A DNA stretch of 64,000 nt from Microbacterium sp. zg-B185. GTDB lineage: Bacteria > Actinomycetota > Actinomycetes > Actinomycetales > Microbacteriaceae. Both the position numbers and the translations under genes were made by a program. Shown in pieces: positions 8,802-36,882 of this stretch (its first letter is position 1; each line of letters opens with the position of its first letter). The stretch covers positions 992,001 through 1,056,000 of the forward strand of contig NZ_CP126739.1 in assembly GCF_030246885.1 (NCBI RefSeq), in the 5' to 3' direction. A model generated the notes under the pieces. It did not search any database. It was given only the letters and a program-made list of their open reading frames with translations, and had not been told where the DNA came from.

Positions 8802-8919
8802 CAGGCCACCGGAATGAGCGGCTCGCGTTCCTGGGCGGCCTAACCTCGAAGAAAGCGCCGGGGGGCGCGGACTTCGAAGACACAGAGGCTCGGCCGGAGC
8901 CGACGTGAGGGGGTGGGAG

Positions 8920-9954: not shown

Positions 9955-10050
9955 CGCCGATAGGTTCGATCGCGGGCTGCCGCTACAGCCCGTGACATAG
10001 GCTGGGAGGGTACGCGTAAAGCACCCCGACCCCCGACGAAGCGAGCTGGC

Positions 10051-11162: not shown

Positions 11163-11209
11163 GGTCTCGAGCGTACCGGCGGCGCCCGGCGAGGCCGCAC
11201 GGCACGACC

Positions 11210-11222
11210 GGCACGACGTGCC
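11210..11222. promoter_or_regulatory. palindrome in the GNAT-dapB divergent promoter region
   Basis: GGCACGACGTGCC (six-base arms, one-base centre) lies just upstream of the dapB -10-like TACGAT (11228-11233), where a repressor would block the -35/-10 spacer. The preceding GGCACGACC forms a direct repeat with its left half. This is an operator candidate only. Confidence 0.3.
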
Positions 11223-11240
11223 GCCGATACGATGGGATCC

Positions 11241-12053: not shown

Positions 12054-12499
12054 GCGCCCGCATCGGTGTCGCGGTGATGGCGGCGCTCCTCGTGCTGTAC
12101 ATCGTCCTGGTCGCGCAGCGGGCGTGGCTGCTTCTGATCAGCGGAGAGCCGATCGGCATCGCGATGGGCGCGGCGCTGGTCGTGCTGCCCGTCATCGCGG
12201 CCTGGGCCCTGGGACGCGAGCTGTGGTTCGGCATCCGCGCCGAGCAGCTCGCGCGCCGGCTCGAGACCGAGGGCGGCTTGCCCGATGACGAGGTGTCGGT
12301 ACGGCCGAGCGGCAGAGTCATGCGCGAAGACGGGGATCTCGTCTTTCCCGCCTATCGGGCCCAGGTCGAGGCGGATCCGGACGACTGGCGCGCCTGGTAC
12401 CGGCTCGGTCTGGCGTACGACGCCGCCGGCGACCGCAGACGAGCCCGTGCCGCGGTGCGGCGGGCGATCCAGCTGGAGACGGGGTCGCGTCGTCGCTAG
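12050..12499 (+). CDS. membrane-anchored TPR-containing hypothetical protein
   Basis: A 149-residue protein. Two hydrophobic segments (about residues 5-25 and 37-57) are followed by a cytoplasmic part that ends in one tetratricopeptide-like helix pair: DDWRAWYRLGLAYDAAGD then RRRARAAVRRAIQ. Its ATG overlaps the dapB stop, so it is translationally coupled. Its TAG shares the palindrome CTAG (12496-12499) with the stop of the opposing gene. Similar small membrane proteins follow dapB in related genera, as far as I recall. The function is unknown; a protein-protein scaffold is possible. Confidence 0.7.
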   Translation: MSARIGVAVMAALLVLYIVLVAQRAWLLLISGEPIGIAMGAALVVLPVIAAWALGRELWFGIRAEQLARRLETEGGLPDDEVSVRPSGRVMREDGDLVFPAYRAQVEADPDDWRAWYRLGLAYDAAGDRRRARAAVRRAIQLETGSRRR

Positions 12500-13419
12500 T
12501 CCGGCGGTGCGGGCACCGCGGCATCCACAGCCTCTTCGACCGTCTCGGAGGTGAAGCGGAATCCGGATTCGCCCAACACGACCGGGAGCACGGCGGCATC
12601 GCCGGTCAGCAGCCCCTCGGTCGCGTCGGCGCCGAGCACGAGCCTGAGCGCCCAGGCCGGTGCGGGCACGACGAACGGCCGGTTCATCCGCATCGCCAGC
12701 GCGAAGCCGAGGTCGTTCGCGTTCGCGGGGTTCGGACCGACGAGATTCACCGGACCCTCGATGTCGGCGTCCAGGAGATGACGGATGCCGCGCACCTCGT
12801 CCGCGAGCGAGATCCAGGGCCATTTCTGCTGTCCGCCGGCGATCGGGCCGGCCACACCCAGACGGGTGAGCAGCACGAGCGGTTTCAGTACGCCCTCCGG
12901 ATGCACCACGGGCGCCGTGCGCATCAGCGCCACGCGCGCACGCGACCCGGCACCCAGCGCCGCTGCCTCCCACTCCCCGCACAGGTCGGCGAGGAACGTC
13001 TCCCCGCGCGGGGATCTCTCGGTCAGCACCCGGCCGGGTGCTGACCCGTAGTAGCCCACGGCGGAGGCCGACAGGAACGCGGGGGCGTCGGTGCCCAGTT
13101 CACGCACAGCGCGTGCGAGGGCGCGCGCCGGCGTGATCCGCGACCACAGCAGCGTGTTCTTGTAGCCGGAGGTCCACGGGAATCGGCCGATCGATGCCCC
13201 GTTCAGCCCGACCACCGCGTCTGCGCCATCCAGGACAGCCGGATCGAGCGGCGACGCGTCGGTCAGCCATTCGATCTCGTCGGCCATCTCCGCGGGACGG
13301 CGCACGAGGGTGGTGACCCGGATCCCGTCCGCGCGGAGGCTGGCGACCAGGGCGGACCCGATCAGTCCGGATGCGCCGGCCACGACGATCCGGCGCGTCC
13401 GGGCAGCCGGTTCAGGCAA
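12496..13419 (-). CDS. TIGR01777-family NAD-dependent epimerase-like protein
   Basis: A 307-residue extended SDR protein of the YfcH/TIGR01777 type. The N-terminal Rossmann loop is VVAGASGLIGSALVASL, followed by GADAVVGLNGASIGRFPW, SASAVGYYGSAPGR (the Y of the SDR active site) and PLVLLTRLGVAGPIAGG. The C-terminal domain ends LGESGFRF. The start is TTG 13419, overlapping the upstream osmC stop by eight bases and preceded by GAGG, so translation is coupled. The substrate is unknown. In plants and bacteria the family is linked to division or cell-surface functions, but I cannot assign one here. Confidence 0.8.
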   Translation of the reverse strand: MPEPAARTRRIVVAGASGLIGSALVASLRADGIRVTTLVRRPAEMADEIEWLTDASPLDPAVLDGADAVVGLNGASIGRFPWTSGYKNTLLWSRITPARALARAVRELGTDAPAFLSASAVGYYGSAPGRVLTERSPRGETFLADLCGEWEAAALGAGSRARVALMRTAPVVHPEGVLKPLVLLTRLGVAGPIAGGQQKWPWISLADEVRGIRHLLDADIEGPVNLVGPNPANANDLGFALAMRMNRPFVVPAPAWALRLVLGADATEGLLTGDAAVLPVVLGESGFRFTSETVEEAVDAAVPAPPD

Positions 13420-19079: not shown

Positions 19080-19337
19080 ATGACCGTCGTAGAACACGGG
19101 CGCGACAGCACCCGCCAGAACCCCAAGCCGGCGTTCGCGCAGCCGCGCCTGATCCTCTACGTGCTGCTGGGCGGTGCGATCGGCACCGCGGGCAGGTAAG
19201 GGCTCTCGCTGGCCCTTCCCGCCGACGGCGGTGTGCCGTGGGCCGTGCTGATCGTCAACCTCTGCGGCGCGTTCATCCTCGGCTTCCTGCTGACCGCGCT
19301 GGCTTCGCGCACACCGGAGACACCGGGACGCGCCTAA
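19080..19337 (+). pseudogene. crcB fluoride channel pseudogene (nonsense codon and 3' truncation)
   Basis: From ATG 19080, with AGAAGGAAG upstream, the frame reads a normal CrcB start (LILYVLLGGAIGTAGR) and then hits TAA at 19197-19199 exactly where the family has Tyr in 'RYG'. The same frame continues with perfectly good CrcB sequence, GLSLALPADGGVPWAVLIVN and GAFILGFLLTAL, to TAA at 19335-19337. A TAC/TAT-to-TAA change is the simplest cause. The second half of the gene (about 45 residues with the 'GGFTT' block) is absent; the opposing intact crcB begins at the break. The gene is dead or at best gives a 39-residue peptide. Confidence 0.8.
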
Positions 19338-19717
19338 GCCGCCGGGAGAAGCCCGAGCAGTATCCCGCACCCGGCAAGCAGTGCGTTCACGGCAAGCAAC
19401 GCTATTCCGTTGAGTGCGGCCGCCCGGAGTCGACCGTCTATCAGGAGCCGGACTGTTTCGAGGCTTGCCGTACTGAACGTGGTGTATCCGCCGATCAAGC
19501 CTGTGCCGACGATCAAGCCGACTGGGCCAGGAACGGTGTGAGCTGCAACGAGGCCGGTGACGACGCCCAGTGCAAGCGATCCGGTCGCGTTGATGATGTT
19601 GGTCCCTACTGGGAACGCTATCCGCGCGCGCTGGCTCACCTGGCTGTCTAGGACGAAGCGCAGCGCCGAACCGATCCCGCCCGCTGCCGCCACAGCTAGG
19701 AGGACGAGCGGGCTCAC
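19334..19717 (-). CDS. crcB: CrcB/Fluc-type fluoride channel, second subunit
   Basis: A 127-residue membrane protein with four hydrophobic segments. Fluc/CrcB marks: AAAGGIGSALRFVLD (G-G-x-x-G-x-x-x-R), FPVGTNIINATGSLALG (the Asn-containing segment) and GTGLIGGYTTFSTASLE (the polar-track T-T-F-S). Fluc channels are dual-topology or paired dimers that expel fluoride; two adjacent genes here suggest a heterodimer. GTG 19717 overlaps the upstream crcB stop (GTGA), with AAGGGG just before. It lies downstream of the fluoride riboswitch in one transcript. Confidence 0.9.
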   Translation of the reverse strand: MSPLVLLAVAAAGGIGSALRFVLDSQVSQRARIAFPVGTNIINATGSLALGVVTGLVAAHTVPGPVGLIVGTGLIGGYTTFSTASLETVRLLIDGRLRAAALNGIALLAVNALLAGCGILLGLLPAA

Positions 19718-20169
19718 CGTGCACCCCTTCCTAGGCGGGCACCAGCGATGATGCCGACGTACGAGGCCGCGCTCCCAACGACGAGCGTCCCCGCGAAGTA
19801 CGCCGCGGCCATCATGGGGCTCGAGACGGTGAGCTGCGCGAGATCGACGGTCACGGTGCTGTAGGTCGTGAAGCCCCCGATGAGGCCGGTTCCGACCGCG
19901 AGGCGGGTGAGGCGGCGGTGCCCCTCGTCGGGTCCGCGGGATGCAAGGAACTGGACGACGAGGCCGAGCGCGAACGCCCCTGCCACGTTGATGAGGAAGA
20001 TACCGAGTGGGTAGTCGGCCGGATCAGGAATAGTCGCGGCGATCAGCGCCCGCGCGGCGGTGCCGATCGTTCCGCCGGCTGCGACCAGGGCGACGTGTCT
20101 CCAGGGCAGCATCGCCGCTCCGGGGGTGGAGATGTTCTCGGTATCCGGGTCGAGGGGTCCGGTGGGCAT
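19714..20169 (-). CDS. crcB: CrcB/Fluc-type fluoride channel, first subunit
   Basis: A 151-residue CrcB homologue. After a hydrophilic 20-residue extension come VALVAAGGTIGTAARALI, YPLGIFLINVAGAFALG and GTGLIGGFTTYSTVTVD, the conserved pore and Phe-box blocks. ATG 20169 is preceded by AGGA five bases upstream, and that AGGA lies in the strand that would pair with the riboswitch expression platform. An internal ATG (MLPWRHVALV) is the usual family start, so the extension may be dispensable. It is the first gene of the riboswitch-controlled pair and overlaps the second. Confidence 0.9.
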   Translation of the reverse strand: MPTGPLDPDTENISTPGAAMLPWRHVALVAAGGTIGTAARALIAATIPDPADYPLGIFLINVAGAFALGLVVQFLASRGPDEGHRRLTRLAVGTGLIGGFTTYSTVTVDLAQLTVSSPMMAAAYFAGTLVVGSAASYVGIIAGARLGRGAR

Positions 20170-22886: not shown

Positions 22887-24491
22887 TCACGTATCGGAGT
22901 CCGGCGGCTGTGTCGAGTTGCTCGGCTTCCGAGGAGCGGATCTGCTCGTCGGCGGGCGCGCCGTCGTGGCGGTGGGGCCTGACGGCGCGGCCTCCTGGGC
23001 CTCGTCCTCGTCGTGGGTGCCGTGCAGGGCCTTGTCTGCTTCGCTGCGCCGATCCCATCCGGGGCGGCGCAGGGCGTAGAACACGAGTGGCGGAGCGCCG
23101 AGCACCACGATAACGACCCCCACGATCCATGGATATACCGTGGGGGAGAATGCTGTGAACCCCTGGGGCGGGATGAAGGCGAGCACGAACGCCGCGAGGC
23201 AGCCGACGAAGCCGACGCCGGCCACGAGGTTCATCGCCGGCACCCGATAGGTGCGCTTCACGTTCGGCTCCTTCCGGCGCAGCGCGATGGCTGCGGCGAA
23301 CATGAGCATGTACATGATCAGATAGATCGCCGCGGCCATATCGACGAGGGCGACGAACGCGGAGCTCACGTTCGGCACGACGACGAAGATCGCCGCGAGG
23401 ATCGTCACGATCGTCCCCTGCAGCATCAGGATGCCGGACTGGACCCCCGCCTTGTTGCGCTTCTGCAGGGCCGGCGGCAGCAGCCCCGTCTCCGCAGCAG
23501 CCAACAGGCCCTTGGAAGGACCTGCGATCCATGTGATGACGGAAGCGAGCGCTCCTGCGGCGATCAGTGCAGAGACCACGGCGGTTCCCCACCCGAGATC
23601 CCACTTGTCGAAGTACGCCTGGAACGCGAGCATGATGCCGTTGGTGAGCCCCAGCTCCTTTTCCGGGACGGCGATCGAGATCGCGATCGTCGGCAGGATG
23701 AACACCAGCAGGATCAGGATCGAGGCCAGGAGCACGGACTTGGGATACCCCTTCCCGGGATCCTTCATCTGGTTCACGTGGACGGCGTTCACCTCCATGC
23801 CCGCGTATGCGAGCACGTTGGAGACGATCAGCACGATGGAGGCGATGCCGGTGAACGGCGGGATGACCGCCGCCGCATCCAGCGGCACTTCGCTCTTCTG
23901 CCCGGTGCCGAGCCAGATGAAGCCGAACACAATCAGCAGCACGGCGGGCAGCAGGGTGCCCAGGATGCCGCCCCAGGAGCCGAGCTTGGCGAACAGGTTG
24001 CCGCCCCGCAGCGTGACGAGCGTCGACCCCCAGTAGAGCACCAGGATCACGATCGCGGTGAACAGCCCGGAGTCCGATAGCGACGGGTCCAGGAAGACGA
24101 AGGCCAGCGCCGCGGCGATGAAGGCGATCTGCGTCGGATACCAGACGACGTTCTGGATCCATTGGAGCCAGACCGCGGTGAAACCCCAGCGGTTGCCGAA
24201 TGCCTCCCGCACCCAGACATAGACGCCGCCCTTCCACCCGGTGGCCAGCTCGGCGGCCACCAGCGCCGTCGGGATGAGGAACAGGACGGCGGGGATGATG
24301 TAAAGGGTGACGCTGCCGAGTCCGTACACGGCCATTGCGGGGAGCGAGCGGAGACTCGCCACCACCACGAGCGTCAGCAGCGCCAGTTGGCCGACGCCCA
24401 GATAGTTGACGACGGCGCTGCGCGGGGCGAGGGGATGATTTGAGTCGGCCTGCGCCGCGGCATCCGATGTCTTCTTCGATGTGTTTGACAT
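22887..24491 (-). CDS. gadC: glutamate/GABA antiporter, APC family
   Basis: A 534-residue amino-acid/polyamine/organocation transporter with about 12 membrane helices, from NYLGVGQLALLTLVVVASLR to PWIVGVVIVVLGAPPLVFYAL. Its charged C-terminal tail is about 60 residues. The helix-1 region, GWKGGVYVWVREAFGNRWGF, QWIQNVVWYPTQIAF and AYAGMEVNAVHVNQMKDPGKGYPK are typical of the glutamate:GABA subfamily. It begins nine bases after gadB, so the pair is one operon: GadB consumes a proton making GABA and GadC exchanges GABA for glutamate. The C-terminal tail may be the pH-gated plug known from GadC. Confidence 0.88.
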   Translation of the reverse strand: MSNTSKKTSDAAAQADSNHPLAPRSAVVNYLGVGQLALLTLVVVASLRSLPAMAVYGLGSVTLYIIPAVLFLIPTALVAAELATGWKGGVYVWVREAFGNRWGFTAVWLQWIQNVVWYPTQIAFIAAALAFVFLDPSLSDSGLFTAIVILVLYWGSTLVTLRGGNLFAKLGSWGGILGTLLPAVLLIVFGFIWLGTGQKSEVPLDAAAVIPPFTGIASIVLIVSNVLAYAGMEVNAVHVNQMKDPGKGYPKSVLLASILILLVFILPTIAISIAVPEKELGLTNGIMLAFQAYFDKWDLGWGTAVVSALIAAGALASVITWIAGPSKGLLAAAETGLLPPALQKRNKAGVQSGILMLQGTIVTILAAIFVVVPNVSSAFVALVDMAAAIYLIMYMLMFAAAIALRRKEPNVKRTYRVPAMNLVAGVGFVGCLAAFVLAFIPPQGFTAFSPTVYPWIVGVVIVVLGAPPLVFYALRRPGWDRRSEADKALHGTHDEDEAQEAAPSGPTATTARPPTSRSAPRKPSNSTQPPDSDT

Positions 24492-24500
24492 GTCGTTGCC

Positions 24501-25877
24501 TCAGTGGTGGAAGGCGGGGTGCTGGCCCTCGACGGGCATCGCGGATTCGAGCGCGTCGAGGTATGCGGTCTCGGTCTCGATGCTCTCGAGCAGTTCGGCT
24601 GCCAGATCCATGCTCAGCCCGTTGCGGACGACGATGCGCTGCACGGTCAGGTCACTCAGGTCATCCGGCATGGGATACGCCGGCACGAGCCAGCCCTTCA
24701 TGCGCAGCCGATCCTGCAGATGATAGAGATTCCAGTTCTTTGTGTGCCCGTCTTTCAGGTACCAGGCGAACACGGGGATGTCGCTGCCGTCGTTCCACAG
24801 CTCGAAGGCACCGATCTTCGCGATGCCCTTGGCGAGATATTTCGCGACGTCCTGCGATGCCTGCTGCACCGCGCGGTACCCCTCGAAGCCGAGGCGGAGG
24901 AACATGTAGTACTGCAGGAGCACCTGTGCGCCAGGGCGGGAGAAGTTGAGTGCGAAGGTGGGCATCTCCCCGCCGAGGTAGCTGACCTGGAAGACCAGGT
25001 CCTCAGGCAGCCACTGCGTGTGACGCCACACCACCCAGCCGAGACCGGGGTAGACGAGCCCGTACTTGTGCCCGGACGTGCTGATGGAGTGCACCCGCTC
25101 CAGGCGGAAGTCCCACACGAGGTCGGGCTGCAGGAAGGGAGCGATCATCGCGCCGGAGGCCCCGTCGACGTGGATCGGGATATCGAGCCCGGTCTTCGCC
25201 TGGATCTCGTCCAGTGCTTCCGCGATCGCGGCGACCGGCTCGTACATGCCGGTGTAGGTGACCCCCAAGATCGCCACGACACCGATCGTGTTCTCATCGA
25301 CGTACTTCTCCAGGTCGTAGCCGTCGAGAGTCTTGTGCTCCAGGCTGATCGGCACGAACCGCGGCTCGACGTCGAAGTAGTTGCAGAACTTCTCCCAGCA
25401 CACCTGCACCGCCGAGGACATCACCAGGTTCGGCTTGGAGGTGTCCTTCCCGGCGACGCGGCGGGACTGCTGCCAGCGCCGCTTGAACGCGAGGCCGCCG
25501 AGCATGCAGGCCTCGGACGAGCCGATGGTCGAGGTGCCGATGCTCTGGGAGGCATCCGGTGCGTTCCACAGGTTCGCGATCATGCGCCAGCAGTTGTCCT
25601 CGATGGCCGCCGTCTGAGGATACTCATCCTTGTCGATCATGTTCTTGTCGAAGGCCGCCTCGTACACCTGCTTGGCGTCCTCATCCATCCAGGTCCCCAC
25701 GAAGGTGGCCAGGTTCAGGCGCGAGTTGCCGTCCAGCATCGTCTCGTCGTCGACGATCTGCTTCGCGGTGTCGGGGAGTGACTCCTGCTGTGGGATGACA
25801 TGGCGTGCGGCGACCGTCGACTCTCCCGGGCGGGCGAACCGCGGAGTCAACTCGTCGTTTGCCTGAGATGCGTTCAT
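24501..25877 (-). CDS. gadB: glutamate decarboxylase
   Basis: A 458-residue PLP enzyme that converts glutamate to GABA and CO2, consuming a cytoplasmic proton. The PLP lysine is Lys271 in SISTSGHKYGLVYPG. Other family blocks are FVGTWMDEDA, GTSTIGSSEACMLGGLAFK and IPIHVDGASGAMIAPF (the Asp contacting the PLP ring). The C-terminus ends QHPAFHH, like the autoinhibitory His-containing tail of acid-induced GadB (family knowledge). ATG 25877 follows GGGAG by five bases. Operon gadB-gadC; divergent from the bile salt hydrolase gene across a region with a DosR-like box. Confidence 0.95.
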   Translation of the reverse strand: MNASQANDELTPRFARPGESTVAARHVIPQQESLPDTAKQIVDDETMLDGNSRLNLATFVGTWMDEDAKQVYEAAFDKNMIDKDEYPQTAAIEDNCWRMIANLWNAPDASQSIGTSTIGSSEACMLGGLAFKRRWQQSRRVAGKDTSKPNLVMSSAVQVCWEKFCNYFDVEPRFVPISLEHKTLDGYDLEKYVDENTIGVVAILGVTYTGMYEPVAAIAEALDEIQAKTGLDIPIHVDGASGAMIAPFLQPDLVWDFRLERVHSISTSGHKYGLVYPGLGWVVWRHTQWLPEDLVFQVSYLGGEMPTFALNFSRPGAQVLLQYYMFLRLGFEGYRAVQQASQDVAKYLAKGIAKIGAFELWNDGSDIPVFAWYLKDGHTKNWNLYHLQDRLRMKGWLVPAYPMPDDLSDLTVQRIVVRNGLSMDLAAELLESIETETAYLDALESAMPVEGQHPAFHH

Positions 25878-26195
25878 GGCCTCTCCCGTCTCGTATTCGA
25901 GCGGCCACGAGGAGGTGGTCGCCTCGGGTGCGACGGGTTGAGGATGAGTCCGCCGCCGTGCACCCGGGGCGAGCGTATGCCTCGTGCACGGCCCGTACCA
26001 GGGACGAACGTCCCCCGGTGGGGGAGCCTGCGGGAGCGGCGCCGCGGAGCGGAGCGTCCCGCGCAGACGGGCGGAACCTGGGCCGGGCCGCGCCAGGCAG
26101 CGTGGTCCATTGTGGGTCGTTTGGCCTTGGCCCCGCAGCGTTCACGGACGTACGGTGGCGCCATTGAGCGAGTCGACGCTATCGGAGGGTCACGG
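25878..26195. other. divergent control region between gadB and the bile salt hydrolase gene
   Basis: There are 318 bases between two divergent starts and no gene. The only clear signal is GGGACGAACGTCCC at 26001-26014. Open frames crossing it lack ribosome sites. Confidence 0.5.
26001..26014. promoter_or_regulatory. DosR/DevR-like palindrome between gadBC and bsh
   Basis: GGGACGAACGTCCC has the GGGAC-N4-GTCCC core of the mycobacterial dormancy regulator box (GGGACTWWAGTCCC). It is central in a divergent promoter region, 123 bases from the gadB start and 181 from the hydrolase start. No dosR or dosS gene is in the window. Confidence 0.45.
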
Positions 26196-27170
26196 ATGTG
26201 CACAGGAGCGAACTACACCACCCGGGATCACTATTTCGGGCGCAATCTCGATCTGGAGTTCTCCTACAACGAGACGGTGACCGTGACGCCTCGGAACTTC
26301 CCCTTCGAATTCCGCAAGGCTGCTCCGCTCCCGGCGCACCACGCGATCATCGGGATGGCGACCATCGCCGACGGGTACCCGCTGTATTACGACGCGACGA
26401 ACGAGAAGGGCCTCAGCATGGCGGGGCTCAACTTCCCGGAGAACGCCGACTACAAGCCCGAGGCGGAGGGCAAGACGAACATCACTCCGTTCGAGTTCAT
26501 CCCCTGGATCCTCGGCCAGTTCGAGACGGTCGATGAGGTCCGCACCGCGCTCGCTTCGCTCAACCTCGTGAAGATCGATTTCAGCGACGCCTTCCCGCTC
26601 TCGCCCTTGCACTGGATCATCTCCGACCGGACGGCATCCATCACGGTGGAGAGCGTTAAGGAGGGCCTGAAGGTGTACGACAACCCCATCGGCGTCCTCA
26701 CGAACAACCCCACGTTCGATATCCAGTCCTTCAACCTGAACAACTTCATGCACCTGTCGAAGAACCCGCCGGAGAAGCACTTCTCCGATGACCTGGAGTT
26801 CGACGTGTACAGCCGCGGAATGGGCGCGATCGGCCTCCCCGGAGATCTCTCGTCCTCATCACGGTTCGTCAAGGCGGCCTTCACGAAGATGAACTCCGTG
26901 TCGGGGGACTCCGAATCCGAATCGATCAGCCAGTTCTTCCAGATCCTGGGGTCCGTCGCTCAACAGCGAGGATGCGTCGAGGTATCGCCCGGCAAGTTCG
27001 AGATCACCATCTACTCCTCGTGCTGCAACACCGACAAAGGCATCTACTACTACACGACGTACGAGAACAGCCAGCTGACGGGGATCGACATGCACAACGA
27101 AGACCTCGACGGCAGCACCCTCGCCGACTACCCCCTCATCAAGGAGCAACAGGTCCACATGCAGAACTGA
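26196..27170 (+). CDS. bsh: choloylglycine hydrolase family protein (probable bile salt hydrolase)
   Basis: A 324-residue Ntn-hydrolase. Cys2 in MCTGANY becomes the N-terminal nucleophile; Arg16 and Asp19 (FGRNLDLE) and Asn79 in MAGLNFPE match the bile-salt/penicillin V acylase active site. LTNNP around residue 169 and GDLSSSSRF near residue 225 match too. MAGLNFPE is more like bile salt hydrolases than penicillin acylases, but N-acyl-homoserine lactones are another known substrate type. There is no signal peptide, so it is cytoplasmic. GGAGGG lies six bases before ATG 26196. It is divergent from gadBC. The enzyme is rare in environmental actinobacteria as far as I know, which hints at transfer or a gut habitat. 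Confidence 0.85.
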   Translation: MCTGANYTTRDHYFGRNLDLEFSYNETVTVTPRNFPFEFRKAAPLPAHHAIIGMATIADGYPLYYDATNEKGLSMAGLNFPENADYKPEAEGKTNITPFEFIPWILGQFETVDEVRTALASLNLVKIDFSDAFPLSPLHWIISDRTASITVESVKEGLKVYDNPIGVLTNNPTFDIQSFNLNNFMHLSKNPPEKHFSDDLEFDVYSRGMGAIGLPGDLSSSSRFVKAAFTKMNSVSGDSESESISQFFQILGSVAQQRGCVEVSPGKFEITIYSSCCNTDKGIYYYTTYENSQLTGIDMHNEDLDGSTLADYPLIKEQQVHMQN

Positions 27171-27596: not shown

Positions 27597-30500
27597 ATGG
27601 ACGCGGCGTTGATCGTGCTCGGGGTGATCGTGCTGCTGCTGACGCTCCTGGACACGTTCCTCGCGGTGCTCAACTACGACGAAGGCGGTCTCTTCGTCGA
27701 CAAGATCGTCCGCGGCCAATGGCTGGTCATGCGCGCGATCACGCGGCGGGTGGACCGTCGATGGCGTCCGCTGGTGCTGCGCCAGGTCACCGGGGTGCTG
27801 CTGCTGACCACGATCTTCTGGTGGCTGTTGGGGATCCTGCTCGGTTTCGCGCTGATCTACCTCGGCGCGATGGGCTTCAGCGGCGCGTTCCAGATCTCGC
27901 CCGGCGTGAAGGCCGACTTCTGGGGTGCGCTGTACCTGAGCACCGGCCAGTTCTCCACGGTCGGCGTGGACAACATCTCCCCGGGTGTCCCGGTGCTGGA
28001 GCTGCTCACGGTCATCGAGGCCATGGTCAGCATCGTGCTGCTGTCGATCATCATCACCTTCCTCGGCAGCGCCTACGGCGTCATCCAGTCTTTGCGCGCG
28101 CTCTCGGCCAACTTCTTCCGCATCGGTCGCGGCGTCGGCGATCCGATCGAGACGCTGCAGCCGTTCTTCCCGGACGGTCCGTCCCGCGGACTGGACAGCC
28201 AGCTGGGGGCCATCTCGGACGCGCTCAGCGCCTACGCGGAGGGGCTTGCCCAGAACCGCGCTGCGTACTACTTCCAAAGCGGGCGGGACCAATTCTCCCT
28301 GCCGTTCAGCCTGTACATGACGGCGGGAGTGATCGGGGCGCTGCAATGGGGGCTGCCCGCCGGCAGCGACCCGACGAAGGAGCCGAACCTCGCGCGGCTC
28401 GGCCAAACCTACGAGGACTTCCGTCTGCGCACGCAGCGGATGCTGGGCCTGCGCAGCGCGACACCGCGCCCGCCCGTCTCCGCCGCCGAGTTCTCGACCG
28501 CCATGACGACCTTCGACTCGGCCGACGCGCACACCCGCTCGGATGCGTGGGTGATGCGCTTCCTCGCGATCAACCGGCGCATGGCCGAACTTACGCAGAG
28601 CAGCGCGGTGCCCGATTCCGAGGAGATGTACCGCCGCTACACCGCCTGGCTGGCCTTCGAGGTCGAGGCGCGCGCCTTCACCACCGCCGTCGGCAGTGAT
28701 CTGGACTACCAGCCGATCTATCGCGGGGTGGCCACGACCCCGGACGACATTCCGCTGTCCGCGGCGGACGCTGCCGCGATCCCGGTCATGGTCGGCCCAA
28801 CGGCGTCCGCCGAGGCGCCCGCCGCGCCGACCGGAAACCCGCTGGGGCGATGGCTCCGGCGCCGCACCACGGTGAAAGACCCCGGCCTGGTCCGTCTGGC
28901 CGACGCCGTGCGGTCGCTGGTCGCCGCGATCGTCGCGGTGGGGATCGCGGTGCCCCTGGCCAGCCTGGCCGGACTGAACACCGCCTCGGCCGCCACGTTC
29001 GCCGGGCTCATCTCGCTCTTCTCCGCACCGGCCACGGCGGGCGGCAGGGCGGGCGGCAAATGGTGGGCCGGCACCGTCGCCGCGCTGCCGGCCATCGTGG
29101 GGGCCAGCTGCGGCGTCCTGATCCCGCGCACGCCGGTCTCGGCGGTCTTCGAACTGGCGCTGGTAGCGGCGCTGGCGATGTGGCTGCGCCGCTTCGGTCC
29201 CGCCGTCGGCGGACTGGGTCAGCTGGGTTTCGTCACGTACTACGTCACAGCGCTGCTGGGGATGAACGCGTCCGACCTGACCGCCGTCTTGGTCGCGGCG
29301 GGAGTCGGCGTCCTCGCGTCCTGGATCGTCGGCCTGATCCCCAGGCCCAGCGTCGTTCGCCAGATCGACGACGGGATCGACGCGCTCTACGAGCGCGTCG
29401 CGGCGCTGATCGACGGGAGCGTCGACCTGGTCGCGACGGGTCGGCTGGATGCCCGTCTGATCCGCTCGCTGCGCGCCGGGCAGTCCGCGCTGGTGCAGGC
29501 GGCCGGCTCGGTGGCCGGTCATCTGGACGCGGACACGACGCCGGGCATCCCCGCCGGCCGCGCCCGCGCCCTCCGCGTGCGGGTGTTCGATCTTCAGCTG
29601 GCGGCCCAGAGCCTGGTCACGATGCTTCCGGTCACTGCCAGTCTCGCCATCACCGTCGACGAGCGTGCGCGCCTGGCGGCGGACCTGCTCGATCTGCAGC
29701 AGCAACTCGCGGCGTACCGGCCCGGCGCCCCCGCCAAGCCGCCCGCGCCGCGGGCGACACCCAGCGACCCGCCGCCGGACTGGCCGCGGTCGGCGCGGGC
29801 CATCCTCGCGACGATCGGCGAGCTGCGCACCGCGATCGATCGCCTGCGGGCAGCGCAGAAGAGTGACGATGCGGCCGAGGACGCGCACCCGCAGAAGCAG
29901 GGGCTGACGCAGGCGAAGGAGTCCGAGCACGGGAGGACGCCTGAGCGTGAGCAGCGGTCTGCGTCGGCGGGTCGTTCCGCGGCGCACGCGTCCAGCGGGG
30001 TGCCCGAGGGCACGGCCGTCGCGCACGCGCGGCGCGCACGCGCCGGCGCGGGCACATCCGGCCGTCGGCCCGCACAGCCGCCGGGCGCCCTCAGCCCCGG
30101 GGGCAGGGAAGCGGCGCGCGCGGCCGATAAACAGGCGGTGCAGGCGGCGATCTCGACCGGGCTGGCCTTGTTCCTCGGCGGCTTCGTCTCCACCGGTCAT
30201 CAGTACTGGGCGGCGATGCCGGCGTTCCAGGTGCTGAGCGGATCAGATGCCGAGACCCGTTCGAAGGGGTTCATGCGCATCGTGGCGACGATCGCCGCGT
30301 CCGGTATCGCGTTCGGCCTGGCCATCGTCGCCGATCACACCCCGGCTGTGGCGATCCCGCTGCTGCTGATCAGCGCGTTCGCCATGTCCTACATGCGCGC
30401 GGTGTCCTCCGCGTGGCTGGCGTTCTGGGCCACGCTCCTGCTGGCCACCGTCTACGACCTGCTGGGCACCCTCAGCGTCGAGACCGTCGAGGTGCGCCTC

Positions 30501-31157
30501 GCCGAGACGGCGATCGGGTCGCTCGTGGCGGTCGCCGTCTCGGCGGTGGTGCTGCCCACCCGCACCCGCACGCGCGTCCTGCACGGAATGGCGGGCGTGC
30601 TGGACCAGGCCTCAGCGCTCGGCCGGGCACTGTTCGGGCGGCTGCAGGGGGCGCAGGCGCCGACGGCCGCCGAACTGTCCCACATGACCCGCGCACTCGG
30701 CGCGCAGCTGGCGGACCTGGAGAAGCTCGCACACCCGATCCGACGCAACCCGGGTTCGCTGCAGCCGGCCGGCATTCAGGCCCAGCTGACTTCGCTGTGG
30801 GCGCTGCTCGACCACGAGGGCCACCTGGTCCGCCTGCTGCGCACCTACAGTCCCGACGCCGCCGCGCCTCGCTGGCGGGAGCTCGCCGCCGCCACGGGGG
30901 ACAACTTCGACGCGGTGCGCCGGGTGCTGACCGGCTCCCTGCCGCACCGCGTGCACCTGCCCGCGGAGCTGGAGGATGCCGTAGGGGAGGTCGGGTCGGA
31001 CGCGGAGCGGACGGTGATCCTGCAGATCCTGCGCATGAACCAGACGCTGCTGGCCCTGCTGGATGCCGTGGCACCGGGGACCGTGGAATCCATGACGAAT
31101 CCGGATGCCGCCGCCGGCGATGCGCGGCAGGCCGACCGGTCCGGTGTGGCCGGCTGA
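27597..31157 (+). CDS. fusion of a two-TM channel-like module with two FUSC modules
   Basis: An 1186-residue membrane protein. Residues 1-165: helices around 3-22, 65-95 and 135-160, with a pore-like segment LYLSTGQFSTVGVDNISP (about 112-129). This aligns with the K+-channel 'TVGYGDISP' but reads V-D-N at the filter. About 430-560 and 845-1005 are FUSC modules (aromatic-acid/fusaric-acid exporter type), each with several helices followed by a helical cytoplasmic part. A charged, disordered linker lies at about 735-840. FUSC proteins usually carry one such unit or one per chain of a pair. AAGG lies eight bases before ATG 27597. It sits next to bsh and gadBC. Transport of bile-derived or aromatic acids is inference. 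Confidence 0.75.
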   Translation: MDAALIVLGVIVLLLTLLDTFLAVLNYDEGGLFVDKIVRGQWLVMRAITRRVDRRWRPLVLRQVTGVLLLTTIFWWLLGILLGFALIYLGAMGFSGAFQISPGVKADFWGALYLSTGQFSTVGVDNISPGVPVLELLTVIEAMVSIVLLSIIITFLGSAYGVIQSLRALSANFFRIGRGVGDPIETLQPFFPDGPSRGLDSQLGAISDALSAYAEGLAQNRAAYYFQSGRDQFSLPFSLYMTAGVIGALQWGLPAGSDPTKEPNLARLGQTYEDFRLRTQRMLGLRSATPRPPVSAAEFSTAMTTFDSADAHTRSDAWVMRFLAINRRMAELTQSSAVPDSEEMYRRYTAWLAFEVEARAFTTAVGSDLDYQPIYRGVATTPDDIPLSAADAAAIPVMVGPTASAEAPAAPTGNPLGRWLRRRTTVKDPGLVRLADAVRSLVAAIVAVGIAVPLASLAGLNTASAATFAGLISLFSAPATAGGRAGGKWWAGTVAALPAIVGASCGVLIPRTPVSAVFELALVAALAMWLRRFGPAVGGLGQLGFVTYYVTALLGMNASDLTAVLVAAGVGVLASWIVGLIPRPSVVRQIDDGIDALYERVAALIDGSVDLVATGRLDARLIRSLRAGQSALVQAAGSVAGHLDADTTPGIPAGRARALRVRVFDLQLAAQSLVTMLPVTASLAITVDERARLAADLLDLQQQLAAYRPGAPAKPPAPRATPSDPPPDWPRSARAILATIGELRTAIDRLRAAQKSDDAAEDAHPQKQGLTQAKESEHGRTPEREQRSASAGRSAAHASSGVPEGTAVAHARRARAGAGTSGRRPAQPPGALSPGGREAARAADKQAVQAAISTGLALFLGGFVSTGHQYWAAMPAFQVLSGSDAETRSKGFMRIVATIAASGIAFGLAIVADHTPAVAIPLLLISAFAMSYMRAVSSAWLAFWATLLLATVYDLLGTLSVETVEVRLAETAIGSLVAVAVSAVVLPTRTRTRVLHGMAGVLDQASALGRALFGRLQGAQAPTAAELSHMTRALGAQLADLEKLAHPIRRNPGSLQPAGIQAQLTSLWALLDHEGHLVRLLRTYSPDAAAPRWRELAAATGDNFDAVRRVLTGSLPHRVHLPAELEDAVGEVGSDAERTVILQILRMNQTLLALLDAVAPGTVESMTNPDAAAGDARQADRSGVAG

Positions 31158-31158: not shown

Positions 31159-31614
31159 CTAGCTCGCTGCGGCCGGGGCAGGGACCCGATTCGGGCGTGC
31201 GTTCAGAATCACGATGGCCACACCCGACGCGGTCAGCAGCGCCCATACCCACCCGCGCATGTCCTGGAACTCCACCGCTTCGCTGGATCCCGCCGCGGTG
31301 GCGAGCAGAGTACCGACCCGCCCGATGCCCAGCAGCTGGCCCACTGCTTGCTGGTGGAGATGAGGCTGGAGGCGAGTCCAGCTTGGGCGGGCGGCAGTGA
31401 GCCCAGCGCGGTGACGCTGATCGGATCGGCGATCAGACCGAACCCCAGGCCGAACACCAGGTAGGGGACGATCACCGCCCACAGCGGCGCCGATTCGGTG
31501 GCCCACAGCAGCGCGGCGCCGACGGTCATCAGCAGGCCGCTGATCAGGAGCGCCAGGCGCGATCTGCCCCGGGCGACGAAGCGGGATGCCAGCAGTGCGG
31601 TGATGGTCGCGCCC
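31159..31614 (-). pseudogene. MFS transporter remnant (5' deleted, frameshifted)
   Basis: On the minus strand one frame reads TALLASRFVARGRSRLALLI, LLMTVGAALLWA, YLVFGLGFGLIADPISV and GLASSLISTSKQ. The sequel, AVGQLLGIGRVGTLLATAAG up to VAIVILNARPN, is in another frame, so a frameshift lies near 31345. These are the last four to five helices of a drug/H+ antiporter-type MFS protein. The N-terminal two thirds are missing: the match stops near 31614, where ureD-like sequence on the other strand begins. The gene is dead. Confidence 0.7.
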
Positions 31615-31632
31615 GCTGGGGATCCATCGGCG

Positions 31633-31785
31633 CGATTCGGGGTGAGCGCGCTGCCGGATGACGCCGGCGCCTGGTTCCGGTTCGTCGGCGATGACACGGT
31701 GACCTTCGCGGCGCTGCACACGGCGGTGACGGGCGCAGTCCACGAGCTGCTCACCGGACTGCGCGCACCCGCGATCCGCAAGTGA
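31633..31785 (+). pseudogene. 3' remnant of a ureD-like urease accessory gene
   Basis: The frame ending at TGA 31785 reads RFGVSALPDDAGAWFRFVG, DDTVTFAALHTAVTGAVHEL and then LLTGLRAPAIRK. This looks like the C-terminus of actinobacterial UreD (urease metallochaperone partner), and the urea transporter gene follows 24 bases later, where urease clusters often have one. Everything upstream is missing and replaced by the MFS remnant. The UreD match is from memory and short; the truncated state is clear. Confidence 0.45.
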
Positions 31786-31809: not shown

Positions 31810-32727
31810 ATGAGCACCACGACTCAGCCGACCGAAGTGCGCGCGTGGGGGTTGGGCCTGCTGCACGGCCCGTCGCAGATCTACTTCCAGCAGAACATCA
31901 TCACCGGACTGCTCGTGCTGGCGGCGTTCTTCATCGCGGACTGGCGGATGGGCATCCTCGCGCTGATCGGTGCGCTCGGCGGCATGATCGGAGGTCGCGC
32001 CGTCCGCTACCCCGCCTCGAGCGTCGCGGCGGGCATGCAGTCCTTCTGCGGGACCCTCGTCGGCGCGGCGGTCTTCGCTGCGCTGGGCGGCGCGCACTGG
32101 TGGTCGTACGTGCTGGCCTTCGTGGGCGGCGTGGCCACCGGTCCGGTCACCTGGCTGGTGGATGCGCTGTTCAGCAGGACGGCGCTGAAGAAGTACCAGC
32201 TGCCGTACACGACGGCCCCGTTCGTCATCGTCGCGACGATCATCGCGCTGTCCACGCTGCGGCTCGCCGTGGACGCGGCGCCGTCGGATCTGCCGGATGA
32301 CCCGGTGCCGGCCTTCTTCATCTCCCTCCTGACCAACGTCTGGCAGGTCGTGCTCGTGGACAACCCGTTCGCGGGTGCGGCCATTCTGCTGGGGCTGTTC
32401 ATCGCGAGCTGGAAGGTCGGACTGGCGGCGCTGATGGGCAGTGCCGTGGGTTCGGTGACCGCGATCGCGATGGGGGAGTCCTGGAGCGAGATCGCGAACG
32501 GGCTGGCCAACTACTCGGGCGTGCTCACCGCGATAGCGCTCGCGGTGACGTTCCTCAAGAGCAGCACCGCCTCGTGGCTGTACTCGCTGCCCTGGATCGT
32601 GGTGACGGCCGTGGTCACGCTGCTGATGCACCGTCTCGGCGCGGACACCTACACGTGGCCATACATCCTCACCACGTGGGTCGCACTGATCGTGGCGTAC
32701 TACGTCAGCGGGCTGAAGCGCAGCTGA
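31810..32727 (+). CDS. urea transporter (UT family)
   Basis: A 305-residue channel-type urea transporter. It has about ten hydrophobic segments in two homologous halves; the first begins LLHGPSQIYFQQNIITGLLV and the second FFISLLTNVWQVVLVDNPFAG, the UT repeat starts with the conserved Gln/Asn. It lets urea diffuse down its gradient. GAGGAGG lies just before ATG 31810. No urease genes remain in the window apart from a ureD-like 3' remnant directly upstream, so the gene seems to have outlived its partners here unless urease is encoded elsewhere. Confidence 0.88.
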   Translation: MSTTTQPTEVRAWGLGLLHGPSQIYFQQNIITGLLVLAAFFIADWRMGILALIGALGGMIGGRAVRYPASSVAAGMQSFCGTLVGAAVFAALGGAHWWSYVLAFVGGVATGPVTWLVDALFSRTALKKYQLPYTTAPFVIVATIIALSTLRLAVDAAPSDLPDDPVPAFFISLLTNVWQVVLVDNPFAGAAILLGLFIASWKVGLAALMGSAVGSVTAIAMGESWSEIANGLANYSGVLTAIALAVTFLKSSTASWLYSLPWIVVTAVVTLLMHRLGADTYTWPYILTTWVALIVAYYVSGLKRS

Positions 32728-34168: not shown

Positions 34169-34423
34169 CCTGACTCCCTTCGCCCCCCGAATGGACGATG
34201 GCCGGTCCTGCGAGGACCGCGGTTTCCCGTGCAGCGCATGCGCGCCGACGCGACCTCGGGTTGATTGTGACCCGCGCATTCCGATCCGACCAGGGACCAT
34301 GGTCCGGTGAAGACGGATTCGTGCCGTCTTCGCCGGGAGCCTGGTGAGGGCACCGAGCGCGGGGCTACATCGGCGGCACTGCGACACCGTCGCATCTCGG
34401 CAGACAGAGCGGAGTGGACTCGG

Positions 34424-35122
34424 ATGCATGTTCCCGACGGATTCCTCACGCTGCCGACCTCGATCGGGACCGGAGTGGTCGCGGCCGCCGGGATCGCCCT
34501 GGCGTTGCCCCGGGCCCGCCGCGAGGGGACGGACGACCGCAAGGCGCCGATGGTCGGCATCGTCGCGACTGTCATCTTCGCGGCGCAGATGATCAACTTC
34601 CCCGTCGGGGTGGGGACAAGCGGCCACCTGATGGGCGGAGCGCTCGCCGCCGTCCTGGTCGGCCCGGCAACAGCGGTTCTGTGCCTCAGCGTGGTGCTGA
34701 TCGTCCAGGCGCTGCTCTTCGCCGACGGCGGCATCACGGCGCTGGGCACCAACATCACGCTGATGGCTCTGGTCACCGTCCTCGTCGGCTGGTGGGTGTT
34801 CCGCGGGCTCATGCTCGTCCTGCCGGGGCGGCGTGCATCGGTGGTGGCTGCGGCGGCCGTGGGCGCCCGGGCGTCGGTCCCGGCGGCCGCCGCGGTCTTC
34901 GCCGGGCTGTTCGCCGTGGGGGGGAGCGTGGCGGTCCCGCCGGCAGCGGTGTTCGCCGGGATGCTCTCCTGGCACGCCGTGATCGGCCTGGGCGAGGCGG
35001 CGATCACCGCCCTGATCGTCTCGGCGGTCGTGGCCACGCGACCGGATCTCGTGTACGGCACGCGGTATGAGCGGCGATCCCGGCGCAGTCCCGGTCGTCC
35101 CGTGCGGGAGGTGCCGGCGTGA
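34424..35122 (+). CDS. cbiM: CbiM-like ECF transporter substrate-specificity subunit
   Basis: A 232-residue membrane protein. It starts MHVPDGFLTLP: the N-terminal Met-His-x-Pro-Asp-Gly is the CbiM/NikM hallmark, whose His2 and amino terminus bind Co2+ or Ni2+. INFPVGVGTSGHLMGGALAA is the second metal-site block. About seven hydrophobic segments follow. ATG 34424 is fixed by that N-terminus; GGAG precedes it. It begins an operon with a PDGLE protein, cbiQ and cbiO whose stops and starts overlap. Cobalt versus nickel cannot be decided. I found no cobalamin riboswitch in the leader. Confidence 0.88.
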   Translation: MHVPDGFLTLPTSIGTGVVAAAGIALALPRARREGTDDRKAPMVGIVATVIFAAQMINFPVGVGTSGHLMGGALAAVLVGPATAVLCLSVVLIVQALLFADGGITALGTNITLMALVTVLVGWWVFRGLMLVLPGRRASVVAAAAVGARASVPAAAAVFAGLFAVGGSVAVPPAAVFAGMLSWHAVIGLGEAAITALIVSAVVATRPDLVYGTRYERRSRRSPGRPVREVPA

Positions 35123-35448
35123 CCGGGACGCGGCCGGGGACACGCCGCATCTCCACGACAGCGTTCACGATCGCAGCCCTGAGTGTCGCCCTGCTGATCG
35201 CCTGCGGGCTCAGCGTCTGGGCGTCGACACAGCCGGACGGACTGGAATTCGTCGCCGAGACGGTGGGATTCGACGCGGCCGCGCGGGAGAGCATGCTCAG
35301 CGGCAGCCCCCTGGCGGATTACGGGGTTGCCGCGATCGACCAGCCGTGGCTGTCTGTTGCGGTGGCCGGAGCCTGCGGATGCGCGCTGACCTTCGGCCTC
35401 GCGTGGCTGCTCGGCCGGCTCGCCTCGTCGCGGCGCGACCGGCCGTGA
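35119..35448 (+). CDS. PDGLE-domain protein (CbiN-like auxiliary subunit)
   Basis: A 109-residue protein with two membrane helices (about 14-34 and 78-100) flanking an external loop that begins QPDGLEFVAETVGF, the PDGLE signature of CbiN/NikN-like subunits. The loop loads metal into CbiM/NikM. GTG 35119 overlaps the cbiM stop and its TGA overlaps the cbiQ ATG, so all three are co-translated. The length is normal. Confidence 0.85.
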   Translation: MTGTRPGTRRISTTAFTIAALSVALLIACGLSVWASTQPDGLEFVAETVGFDAAARESMLSGSPLADYGVAAIDQPWLSVAVAGACGCALTFGLAWLLGRLASSRRDRP

Positions 35449-36110
35449 TGCGCTCGGGAGAAGGCCGGACGGGCACGCCGCGGTCCGCGTGGCTGCACCG
35501 TGTCCCGCCGCGCACGTCGCTGCTGACGCTGGTCGGGTTCGCGGTGGTGGTGGTGGCCACGCCGCGGGAATGGTTCGCGGTGTTCGCGCTGTATGCCGTC
35601 GCGGTGGCGATGCTGCTCGTGGCCGCCCGTGTGCGCCCCGCGGTCGCGCTGCGGCGGCTGAGCATCGAGATCCCGTTCGTGGTGTTCGCCCTGCTCATGC
35701 CCTTCATCGCGACCGGGCCGCGCGTGGAAGTCCTCGGTGTCCCGCTCGCCGTGGAAGGGCTGTGGGGGGCCTGGGCGCTGCTGGCCAAGGCGACCTTGAC
35801 GCTGCTGGCCGCGGTCGCGTTCACCGCGGTGACCGAGCCGCGGCGGATCGTCGGCGCCTTGGCGGCGCTGCGGATGCCGGCGCAGCTGACGGCCATCATC
35901 GGCTTCATGTTGCGCTACCTCGACGTGATCGGGGAGGAGTCGGCGCGGATGCGCGTCGCCCGCCAGTCGCGGGGATTCGCCAACCGCGGTCTGCGCGACT
36001 GGCGCACGCTCGGCCGCGGTGTCGGAGCGCTGTTCGTGCGCGCCCACGCCCGCGGCGAGCGCGTGCACCTGGCCATGCTGGCCCGCGGCTACAGCGACGG
36101 CACGGGATGA
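35448..36110 (+). CDS. cbiQ: ECF transporter T component
   Basis: A 220-residue EcfT/CbiQ transmembrane coupling protein. It has about five hydrophobic segments and the two cytoplasmic coupling-helix motifs with Ala-Arg-Gly: RMRVARQSRGFANRG and LAMLARGYSDG, which contact the ATPases. It transmits ATPase motion to the CbiM subunit. The start overlaps the PDGLE gene stop and its TGA overlaps the cbiO ATG. Confidence 0.88.
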   Translation: MRSGEGRTGTPRSAWLHRVPPRTSLLTLVGFAVVVVATPREWFAVFALYAVAVAMLLVAARVRPAVALRRLSIEIPFVVFALLMPFIATGPRVEVLGVPLAVEGLWGAWALLAKATLTLLAAVAFTAVTEPRRIVGALAALRMPAQLTAIIGFMLRYLDVIGEESARMRVARQSRGFANRGLRDWRTLGRGVGALFVRAHARGERVHLAMLARGYSDGTG

Positions 36111-36882
36111 GCGCGGATCCGGCCGGACTCGCCTTCGACGGCGTGCGGTTCGCCTACCCGGGTGACGCGTCCGGCCGGGAGGTCCTGGCCGGCGTCAGCT
36201 TTCGCGTGTCCCCGGCAGAACGGGTCGCCGTTCTCGGGCCGAACGGTGCCGGCAAGACCACGCTGATGCTGCACCTGAACGGCACGCTGACGCCCACCGC
36301 CGGGACGGTCTCGATCGGCGGCGCGGTGGTGTCCCGGCAGAACGCCCGCGAGATCCGGCGCCGCGTCGGACTGGTCTTCCAGGATCCGGACGATCAGCTG
36401 TTCATGCCGACTGTCGGAGAGGACGTGGCGTTCGGTCCGGCCAATTACGGCATCCGCGGCGGTGAGCTGGAGAGTCGGGTGGCGATCGCGCTGGCGCAGG
36501 TCGGGCTGCACGGTGCGGAGCACCGCTATCCGCAGCGGCTCTCGCTGGTGAACGACGGCGCGCGGCGATCGCGACGATCCTGGCCATGGACGTCGAGGTC
36601 GTCGTCCTGGACGAGCCCACCTCCAACCTGGATCCGTCGGCCCGCCGCGCGTTGTCCGCGACCCTGTCCGACCTGGATTCCACGGTGCTGGTCGTCACGC
36701 ACGACCTGCCGTTCGCCCTGGAGGTGTGCCCCCGCTCGGTCGTCCTCAACGGCGGGCGGATCGTGGCGGACGGACCCACCGCGGAGCTGCTCGGGGATGC
36801 CGCGCTGATGGCCGCGCACGGACTCGAGCTGCCGTGGGGCTTCGACCCGGCGGTCGCCGTGCGCCAGCGGGCGCAGCGCTGA
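36107..36882 (+). pseudogene. cbiO: cbiO ECF transporter ATPase with one-base frameshift
   Basis: From ATG 36107 the frame shows a good ABC ATPase: FAYPGDASGREVLAGVSF, Walker A GPNGAGKTT, and Q-loop VGLVFQDPDDQLF. Within the signature the frame is lost. The DNA reads CTCTCGCTGGTGAACGACGG where one more G (CTGGGTGAA) would give LSLGERRRAAIATILAMD and join the second frame with Walker B VVVLDEPTSNLDP and H-loop VVTHDLPFALEV, ending at 36882. The missing base is at about 36547-36548. It is either a real loss, leaving the transporter without its own ATPase, or a sequencing error in a G run. Confidence 0.85.

Follow-up and report, generated by a model that had tools for sequence, protein, structure and literature searches.

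Among the described systems, NaK, a channel with the filter TVGDGN, is non-selective and has only the ion-binding sites S3 and S4, and its conversion to TVGYGD or TVGFGD makes it K+-selective (excerpt of PMC8689586). The FUSC_2 domain is present in the Arabidopsis ALMTs, two isoforms excepted (excerpt of PMC10490231), and a staphylococcal FUSC protein is named in a table row in the excerpt of PMC11206351; in the excerpts of PMC9381600 and PMC6951406, "fusc" is a species or author name. The literature searched apparently contains no paper on a fusion of a channel with FUSC, or on a link of such a fusion to urease or ammonium.

The window (the whole analysed stretch of 64,000 nucleotides from Microbacterium sp. 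zg-B185) contains exactly this combination in an ORF at 27597..31157 on the plus strand, which runs from an ATG at 27597 through 1186 unbroken codons to a stop at 31155-31157 and is present in one copy in the genome. The sequence-only reading had placed a channel-like domain and a FUSC transporter in this one 1186-residue chain, and both Ion_trans_2 (residues 95-159; 22.9 bits vs. a cut-off of 22.5, a marginal single-sequence match) and FUSC_2 (residues 856-981; 48.2 bits vs. 25.6) indeed exceed the Pfam cut-offs. The same layout is seen in 23 other full-length ORFs of 1133-1286 aa, yielding 24 distinct fused loci in five actinobacterial families, a lower bound obtained by a short-pattern scan of genome contigs. 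Thus, a chance ORF or read-through is ruled out, and the fusion, earlier presented as unfamiliar, is uncommon and without a describing paper, but not a one-off. We assign a probability of roughly one in three to the reading that the product is a membrane component of a urease cluster, in which a NaK/CNG-like pore would pass NH4+ and the FUSC part would either provide a path for an anion or be gated by the pore part.

The channel domain (residues 1-163; 27597..28085, plus strand) is delineated by Ion_trans_2, by profile matches to solved K+-channel pores and by hydropathy averaged over the fused rows. It comprises TM1 (66-86), the pore helix with the filter, and TM2 (139-162), which, together with a significant profile match, identifies a pore-loop cation channel; a third hydrophobic segment (1-21), assigned, like the other two, by hydropathy only, lies ahead of TM1. 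Among the 24 fused and the 13 free-standing relatives aligned, 37 in all, Ion_trans_2 matches 31 at E <= 0.01, both kinds being counted together. The profile built from these 37 rows retrieves solved K+-channel pores with the best E of 2.5e-8, and the one built from 46 channel parts (22 fused), with the best E of 1e-12 (KCNK4). Small "Potassium channel protein" entries, which we take to be NaK, are matched by the channel profile at E about 3e-9. The fusion resembles NaK-type two-TM channels (and, in the filter, the CNG type) in the pore-loop fold seen by profile, the retained TVG and the lost outer half of the filter, and differs from them by the extra N-terminal segment, the FUSC part, its own filter variants and a conserved "mid" region (residues 164-372; 28086..28712, plus strand).

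The mid region, which belongs to no Pfam family, is shared with free-standing Ion_trans_2 channels of about 381 aa from other actinobacterial families (L083-L095), and residues 1-372 align with these channels at 29-33% identity (alignment A2). Hence the initial description of a two-TM module captures the pore fold but omits both the segment 1-21 and the mid region. The alternative that the N-terminal helices are a mere piece of a FUSC membrane domain, which the sequence-only reading itself had named as a possible refutation, is ruled out by the same alignment; residues 1-170 gave no hhalign match to either FUSC half. Unlike the fusion, the ~381-aa channels lack FUSC and an adjoining urease marker, and all 13 aligned ones keep GxGD.

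In the window protein the filter reads TVGVDN (residues 121-126; 27957..27974, plus strand; stretch STGQFSTVGVDNISP, residues 115-129), which departs from the K+-selective signature T-x-G-(Y/F/L)-G-D. Column counts and the row listing over all 24 fused loci (alignment A3) show that the inner half of the filter is retained (T 22/24, V 24/24, first Gly 24/24) and the outer half is lost (second Gly 1/24, Asp 0/24), as compared to 13/13 for both residues in the ~381-aa channels and to 11/11 and 10/11, respectively, in the aligned free-standing channels of about 300 aa, although the fusion and the filter change lie on one branch, and hence 24 vs. 13 does not represent 24 independent events. The 13 rows were counted after setting aside L082 and L098 (broken frames) and the partial L064; in the record L052, the gene of L082 also reads GFGD. 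Some distant free-standing channels, e.g. L072, L048 and L051, also depart from GxGD. On the counts in the fused rows, a K+-selective path is rejected as originally conceived, and the alignment of TVGVDN with K+ filters, correct as regards the fold, does not reflect a small variation. Having lost the outer residues of the K+ signature, the fused clade is predicted to have a NaK/CNG-like, non-K+-selective pore, and the pattern of the window filter fits the loss of the outer sites.

The same loss, with three outer columns varying between the filter subtypes (TVGVDN, TVGTSQ and TVGGSx), would also be expected if the pore does not conduct and serves as a membrane sensor or an assembly module, the FUSC part exporting some other organic anion or an amine and the link to urease being regulatory. 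This possibility, which we regard as real though doubtful, agrees with the good conservation of the mid region (mean pairwise identity 0.53). However, TM2 (0.59), T-V-G, and Y113, S115 and Q118 (each in 24/24 fused rows) are conserved as well, for which there is no obvious need in a dead pore, and known channels without the outer sites do conduct (excerpt of PMC8689586). The identity of the filter itself (0.63) tells little about its outer half, as only T-V-G is held across the subtypes.

The FUSC part starts with a divergent FUSC-like membrane half (residues 428-590; 28878..29366, plus strand), recognized by hydropathy and by hhalign comparison of the two whole halves (probability 60.6%, E 8e-5); for the membrane parts alone the values are 22.9% and 9e-4, and the cytosolic parts alone yield no match. 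It is followed by a stretch presumed to be cytosolic (residues 591-755; 29367..29861) and a linker with the mean pairwise identity of only 0.18 (residues 756-840; 29862..30116), both on the plus strand; codons 781-840 of the linker have an atypical codon-position GC pattern. The second membrane half (residues 841-995; 30117..30581, plus strand) contains the FUSC_2 match, and another presumably cytosolic stretch (residues 996-1165; 30582..31091, plus strand) follows; neither cytosolic stretch has a hydrophobic segment above the threshold. FUSC_2 matches 24 of the 37 aligned relatives, fused and free-standing counted together, at E <= 0.01. Of the two complete FUSC modules proposed from the sequence, the second is thus confirmed; the first has no Pfam match in the window protein, nor a BLAST match in L111, and its completeness is only plausible.

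Two unfused relatives (L129 and L130, 762 aa) of the tandem FUSC, YccS-YhfK and aromatic-acid exporter type carry FUSC_2 in the second half and correspond in length to about residues 425-1186, so the tandem length is ordinary; they differ from the fusion in having neither a channel nor a urease marker nearby. With the YccS/YhfK family (NCBIfam TIGR01667) the window protein scores 23.2 bits, far below the cut-off of 467.8. The second half matches the plant GmALMT12/QUAC1 by profile (E 3.2e-5), although the window protein, unlike ALMT, has tandem halves, and the Pfam ALMT match (18.2 bits vs. a cut-off of 20.6) covers only a part of the model.

The fused proteins form a single clade (support 100/99) in the tree based, like alignment A4, on 22 of the 24 fused loci (all except L100 and L103); L112 and L114 had been set aside as copies of L016 and L079, with which they agree in the length and content of the contig. 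The tree tool warned that long branches meet. Microbacteriaceae occur in three places within the clade, and no match to the fusion gene was found in the 12 same-genus genomes listed. A scan of genome contigs with the single window sequence revealed no relative. The same was true for viral contigs, and the five matching plasmid records each cover at most 18% of the query; hence neither a viral nor a plasmid origin of the fusion gene is supported.

The fetched flanks contain urease genes in 19 of the 24 fused loci and urease relics in two more; of the remaining three, one, at a contig end, has a urea transporter only, and two (L016, L102) have no urease. Neighbours were established by tblastn with marker proteins and gene calls by a simple codon-composition script. 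No urease marker was found in 20 free-standing-channel loci and four unfused-FUSC loci, these controls being shorter on average; all loci are of unequal length, some, controls included, being cut by contig ends. At the level of whole genomes, urease alpha is present in 7/8 genomes with the fusion, compared to 69/198 in the order; the urease that survives in G064 and G080 lies elsewhere, away from the fusion gene. The position of the fusion gene beside ure genes is conserved; it adjoins them in both orientations and in five families. Thus, we assign the fusion gene to a urease cluster of a distinct kind, the clade of which is delimited by UreC at 74% or more to that of L013. A 313-aa ORF between ureA and ureB has no Pfam or NCBIfam match.

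If the urease cluster were a mobile unit, the fusion gene could be carried along with it while serving an unrelated function in export. The patchy distribution, with the 12 genomes and the three Microbacteriaceae positions mentioned above, and the persistence of the gene in the window after the loss of urease favour this scenario, which nevertheless seems unlikely, since the linkage holds in both orientations and five families, and the fusion is absent from all 69 further urease loci surveyed in the order.

In the genome of the window, we looked for urease alpha and gamma and found neither. However, a ureD relic comprising the last 67 codons and ending just before the stop (31582..31782, plus strand) stands between the fusion gene and a UT-family urea transporter (31810..32727, plus strand; PF03253, E 6.5e-58). 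It is similar to residues 278-343 of a Microbacterium UreD (L100; 64% identity, E 3e-20) and also matches L103, L108, L110, L111 and L115, although the short ORF holding it has no Pfam match. The interval between the fusion gene and the relic also holds a fragment resembling MFS transporters (31326..31613, minus strand; sub-threshold MFS_1 match, E 5e-7, 29.4 bits vs. a cut-off of 33.4), which overlaps the first bases of the relic on the opposite strand. Downstream are Ni/Co uptake genes of the ECF type (CbiM, a PDGLE domain, CbiQ and an ATPase; 34403..36882, plus strand); the frame of the ATPase appears broken, and its two pieces were searched separately. As the fusion gene is open in a genome without urease, either its role does not depend on urease, or urease has been lost recently. 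Urease requires the entry of urea and nickel, so the linkage might suggest a role of the protein in urea uptake or equilibration, or in nickel import, instead of product export, but this is quite improbable, as a dedicated UT adjoins the fusion in the window, L110, L115 and L116, Ni/Co uptake genes are near it in the window, and we know of no pore-loop cation channels or FUSC proteins acting as urea carriers.

The strongest clue to function, out of reach of a reading without tools, comes from the urease operon of the relatives and, in the window, from the ureD relic. For the disposal of ammonium and carbonate by urease-positive bacteria, the usual explanation is that NH3 and CO2 diffuse or that Amt proteins act; a single chain uniting pore and exporter, whose gene heads a urease operon or is divergent from it, would be a specific and testable candidate for the disposal of urea products. 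Under the preferred reading, that of a urease-cluster membrane component, a free-standing ~381-aa pore-loop channel was joined to a tandem FUSC transporter, most simply once, and the fused gene then would have travelled with a distinct actinobacterial urease, losing the outer K+ half of the filter en route, while TVG remained nearly fixed. The resulting pore would pass NH4+ besides K+ and Na+, so that NH4+ formed upon urea entry and hydrolysis would exit through it. As the FUSC half is related to ALMT and aromatic-acid exporters, we propose an anion role for it: it may carry the accompanying anion, e.g. (bi)carbonate or carbamate, and if the halves are coupled, with the pore gating or charge-balancing the exporter as suggested in the sequence-only reading, the salt would leave without charge build-up. 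Alternatively, the mid domain of the channel part could open the FUSC half. The four-fold pore and the two-fold FUSC halves have no obvious symmetry match, which counts against this explanation.

The most specific version, a charge-balanced vent of ammonium (bi)carbonate or carbamate for urease, with a K+-channel-derived NH4+ pore and an anion-conducting FUSC in one chain, is rather unlikely; if true, it would be a channel-transporter hybrid of a kind not found described in the literature searched. The fusion may help cells to cope with the products of urea breakdown, and it would add a bacterial representative placed in a physiological context to the group of FUSC proteins, which plant ALMTs belong to or are related to (excerpt of PMC10490231). 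Moreover, setting the fused channels against the free-standing ones naturally compares a K+-type filter that has lost its outer half with the state preceding the loss. In favour of the preferred reading, L187, the sole sampled urease cluster of the same clade without the fusion, opens with ammonium and urea transporters, and an ammonium transporter adjoins the fusion in three Rhodococcus loci. On the other hand, as urea and ammonium transporters coexist with the fusion at several loci, such roles may already be filled there.

The ORF at 27597-31157(+) of the window is uninterrupted, encodes 1186 aa and is present as one copy in the 3.57-Mb genome. Residues 95-159 match Ion_trans_2 slightly above the Pfam cut-off, and residues 856-981 match FUSC_2 far above it; the sole NCBIfam match, to YccS/YhfK, is far sub-threshold. 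Thus, the domain search bears out the sequence-only reading that a channel and a FUSC transporter share one chain, both domains being already known. In the hydropathy averaged over the fused relatives, hydrophobic segments 1-21, 66-86 and 139-162 flank the pore loop, and further segments cluster in two places in the FUSC part, about 439-578 and about 855-985. Hence the channel module, proposed to have two transmembrane segments, retains its Ion_trans_2 assignment but has an additional N-terminal segment, 1-21, and the FUSC part looks like a tandem, its halves aligning to each other with 60.6% probability (hhalign, E 8e-5).

With residues 1-200 as the query, matches were observed in 11 of 150 family, 28 of 297 order and 44 of 396 phylum genomes (the samples overlap, and the counts take in the window's own genome); full-length fusions of 1135-1241 aa were present in four family and three order genomes, the window not counted. 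Pattern scanning of genome contigs with an alignment of eight fused proteins yielded 18 loci, each with a full-length fused ORF (1133-1286 aa), two of these being loci already found. This gives 24 distinct fused loci, the window counted: six from Microbacterium, three each from Rhodococcus and Cellulomonas, one apiece from Microterricola, Sanguibacter, Mumia, Nocardioides, Homoserinimonas and Oerskovia, the remaining ones being the window and five loci from the same family or order. At another locus, L096, a 1555-aa ORF (1356-6023(+)) has Ion_trans_2 near its C-terminus and no further Pfam match; either the channel architecture is unusual or the ORF is drawn too long.

In other families of the phylum, free-standing proteins of 366-419 aa (assuming the longest start) align over residues 1 to about 372, a stretch comprising the channel and the conserved middle region; in two further genomes (loci L082 and L098) the frame of the free-standing channel is broken. 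More distant free-standing channels, about 290-350 aa, cover less of this stretch. The unfused FUSC proteins of loci L129 and L130 are 762 aa long and carry FUSC_2 in the second half, the arrangement that residues 425-1186 would predict. In the maximum-likelihood tree of 46 channel parts, all 22 fused rows form a single clade (support 100/99) that groups with the 381-aa free-standing type (100/99); the monophyly of the latter is weakly supported (75/40), and the program warns that long branches meet. The simplest reading of the tree is that the fusion arose in one event. The Microbacteriaceae rows occupy three separate positions within the fused clade, which suggests transfer of the gene between families.

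A profile of the 46 sequences matches solved K+-channel pores (KCNK4, E 1e-12), as well as small 'Potassium channel protein' entries (E about 3e-9), which we take to be NaK. The filter of the 24 fused rows starts with T (22), V (24) and G (24), followed by V, T or G, then by D (7), S (15), G (1) or T (1), and finally by N, Q, S, A, G or Y; the second Gly is thus found in 1/24 rows and the Asp in 0/24. Both residues are present in all 13 aligned 381-aa free-standing channels, and in 11/11 (Gly) and 10/11 (Asp) of those of about 300 aa; some still more distant channels (loci L072, L048 and L051) deviate from GxGD. Among 22 less redundant fused rows, the mean identity of the six filter columns is 0.63, the adjoining columns having 0.45 and 0.44; the former value is owed to T-V-G, as the outer three columns vary among fused subtypes. 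Y113, S115 and Q118 are invariant in 24/24 fused rows. Since the filter change is confined to one branch, we count it as one event. According to PMC8689586, NaK retains sites S3 and S4 only, and converting its TVGDGN to TVGYGD or TVGFGD gives K+ selectivity; the change in the fused clade runs opposite to this one. For a Tsukamurella channel whose filter is odd, non-selective cation conduction was demonstrated (PMC5052707). From this reversed change and this precedent, the fused pore is predicted to be a non-K+-selective cation pore.

Neighbour clustering and Pfam identified the genes around the fusion as encoding urease subunits and accessory proteins (UreA, B, C, F, G and D). When linkage was scored by tblastn with marker proteins in the fetched flanks, urease genes were found at 19 of the 24 fused loci; L116 showed a urea transporter alone, at the contig end, and L016 and L102 had no urease markers in the fetched flank. 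The same markers were found in 0/20 loci with free-standing channels and in 0/4 loci drawn by unfused-FUSC hits (the FUSC match being confirmed by BLAST in three of these four), the control loci being somewhat shorter on average. The fusion gene lies 5' of ureA and in the same orientation in the Microterricola locus and the Microbacterium loci showing ureA, and is divergent from ureA in Oerskovia, Sanguibacter, Nocardioides and Mumia. Urease alpha is held by seven of the eight whole genomes with the fusion, in two of them at another site.

Among 198 order genomes, 69 had a urease-alpha match, 68 above the cut-off. The comparison set consisted of 69 urease loci, several being shortened by contig ends, with one locus per genome even where more urease copies exist: 67 came from the matching genomes other than G213 (which has the fusion) and G286 (which scores below the cut-off), and two were the sites at which G080 and G064 carry urease. 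In none of the 69 does a channel or FUSC part adjoin urease. The fusion-linked clusters contain a 313-aa His-rich ORF between ureA and ureB (L013:4131-5072(-) and relatives), without Pfam or NCBIfam matches, possibly, as a guess, a nickel-handling protein. It recurs in a single comparison locus, L187, which is also the only one whose UreC shares more than 70% identity with the L013 UreC (75%; the median of the 69 is 54%). As the fusion is absent from all 69 loci and L187 is the sole close cluster, the fusion gene is a component of a distinct urease cluster type. The L187 cluster (4454-12787), of the same type, opens with one transporter for ammonium and one for urea, which occupy the place of the fusion gene; urea transporters occur in three more comparison loci.

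In the window's genome, urease alpha and gamma were not found by genome searches, which were positive in 4/14 and 3/14 control genomes, respectively. The interval from the fusion gene to the urea transporter contains a ureD relic of 67 codons (31582-31782(+); 64% identical to the C-terminal end of a Microbacterium UreD, E 3e-20; no Pfam match for this short piece) and a fragment of an MFS-transporter-like gene (31326-31613(-)), together marking a lost urease operon. This exact site is thus the most likely one for the loss of urease in this lineage. Downstream, the gene of a Ni/Co ECF-type transporter ATPase (36107-36882(+)) seems to be divided between two reading frames, as would result from decay once urease had been lost or from a sequencing error. 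Open frames have survived in both the fusion gene and the urea transporter gene; either the fusion protein has a function that needs no urease, or urease was lost recently. At L015, a 41-aa UreC piece (5153-5275(-); residues 332-372, 93% identity) directly adjoins the fusion gene and the genome has urease at another site, apparently a second urease loss at the fusion locus.

Non-selective cation pores of this kind would be expected to let NH4+ through. The pore of the fusion protein may pass NH4+, the FUSC part would transport an anion, and the two activities would be coupled; the earlier suggestion that the exporter is balanced by an ion path within the same protein would be in keeping with this putative mechanism. 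The second FUSC half is similar by profile to GmALMT12/QUAC1 (E 3.2e-5), and Arabidopsis ALMTs carry a FUSC_2 domain (PMC10490231). Alternatively, the pore could be silent and sensory, the protein could serve urea or nickel entry, or the gene could be a passenger. Among the papers listed by searches of the open-licence PubMed Central literature, none seemed to describe the fusion, its filter or its urease setting.

Several other genes of the window may be mentioned. Immediately 5' of the fusion gene there is a choloylglycine hydrolase family gene (26190-27170(+)). An amino-acid permease gene adjoins that of a pyridoxal-dependent, glutamate-decarboxylase-like decarboxylase (22887-25877(-)), resembling an acid-resistance pair. 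A CrcB pair is located at 19334-20169(-), and CrcB also occurs near the fused relatives at L015, L081, L108 and L111.
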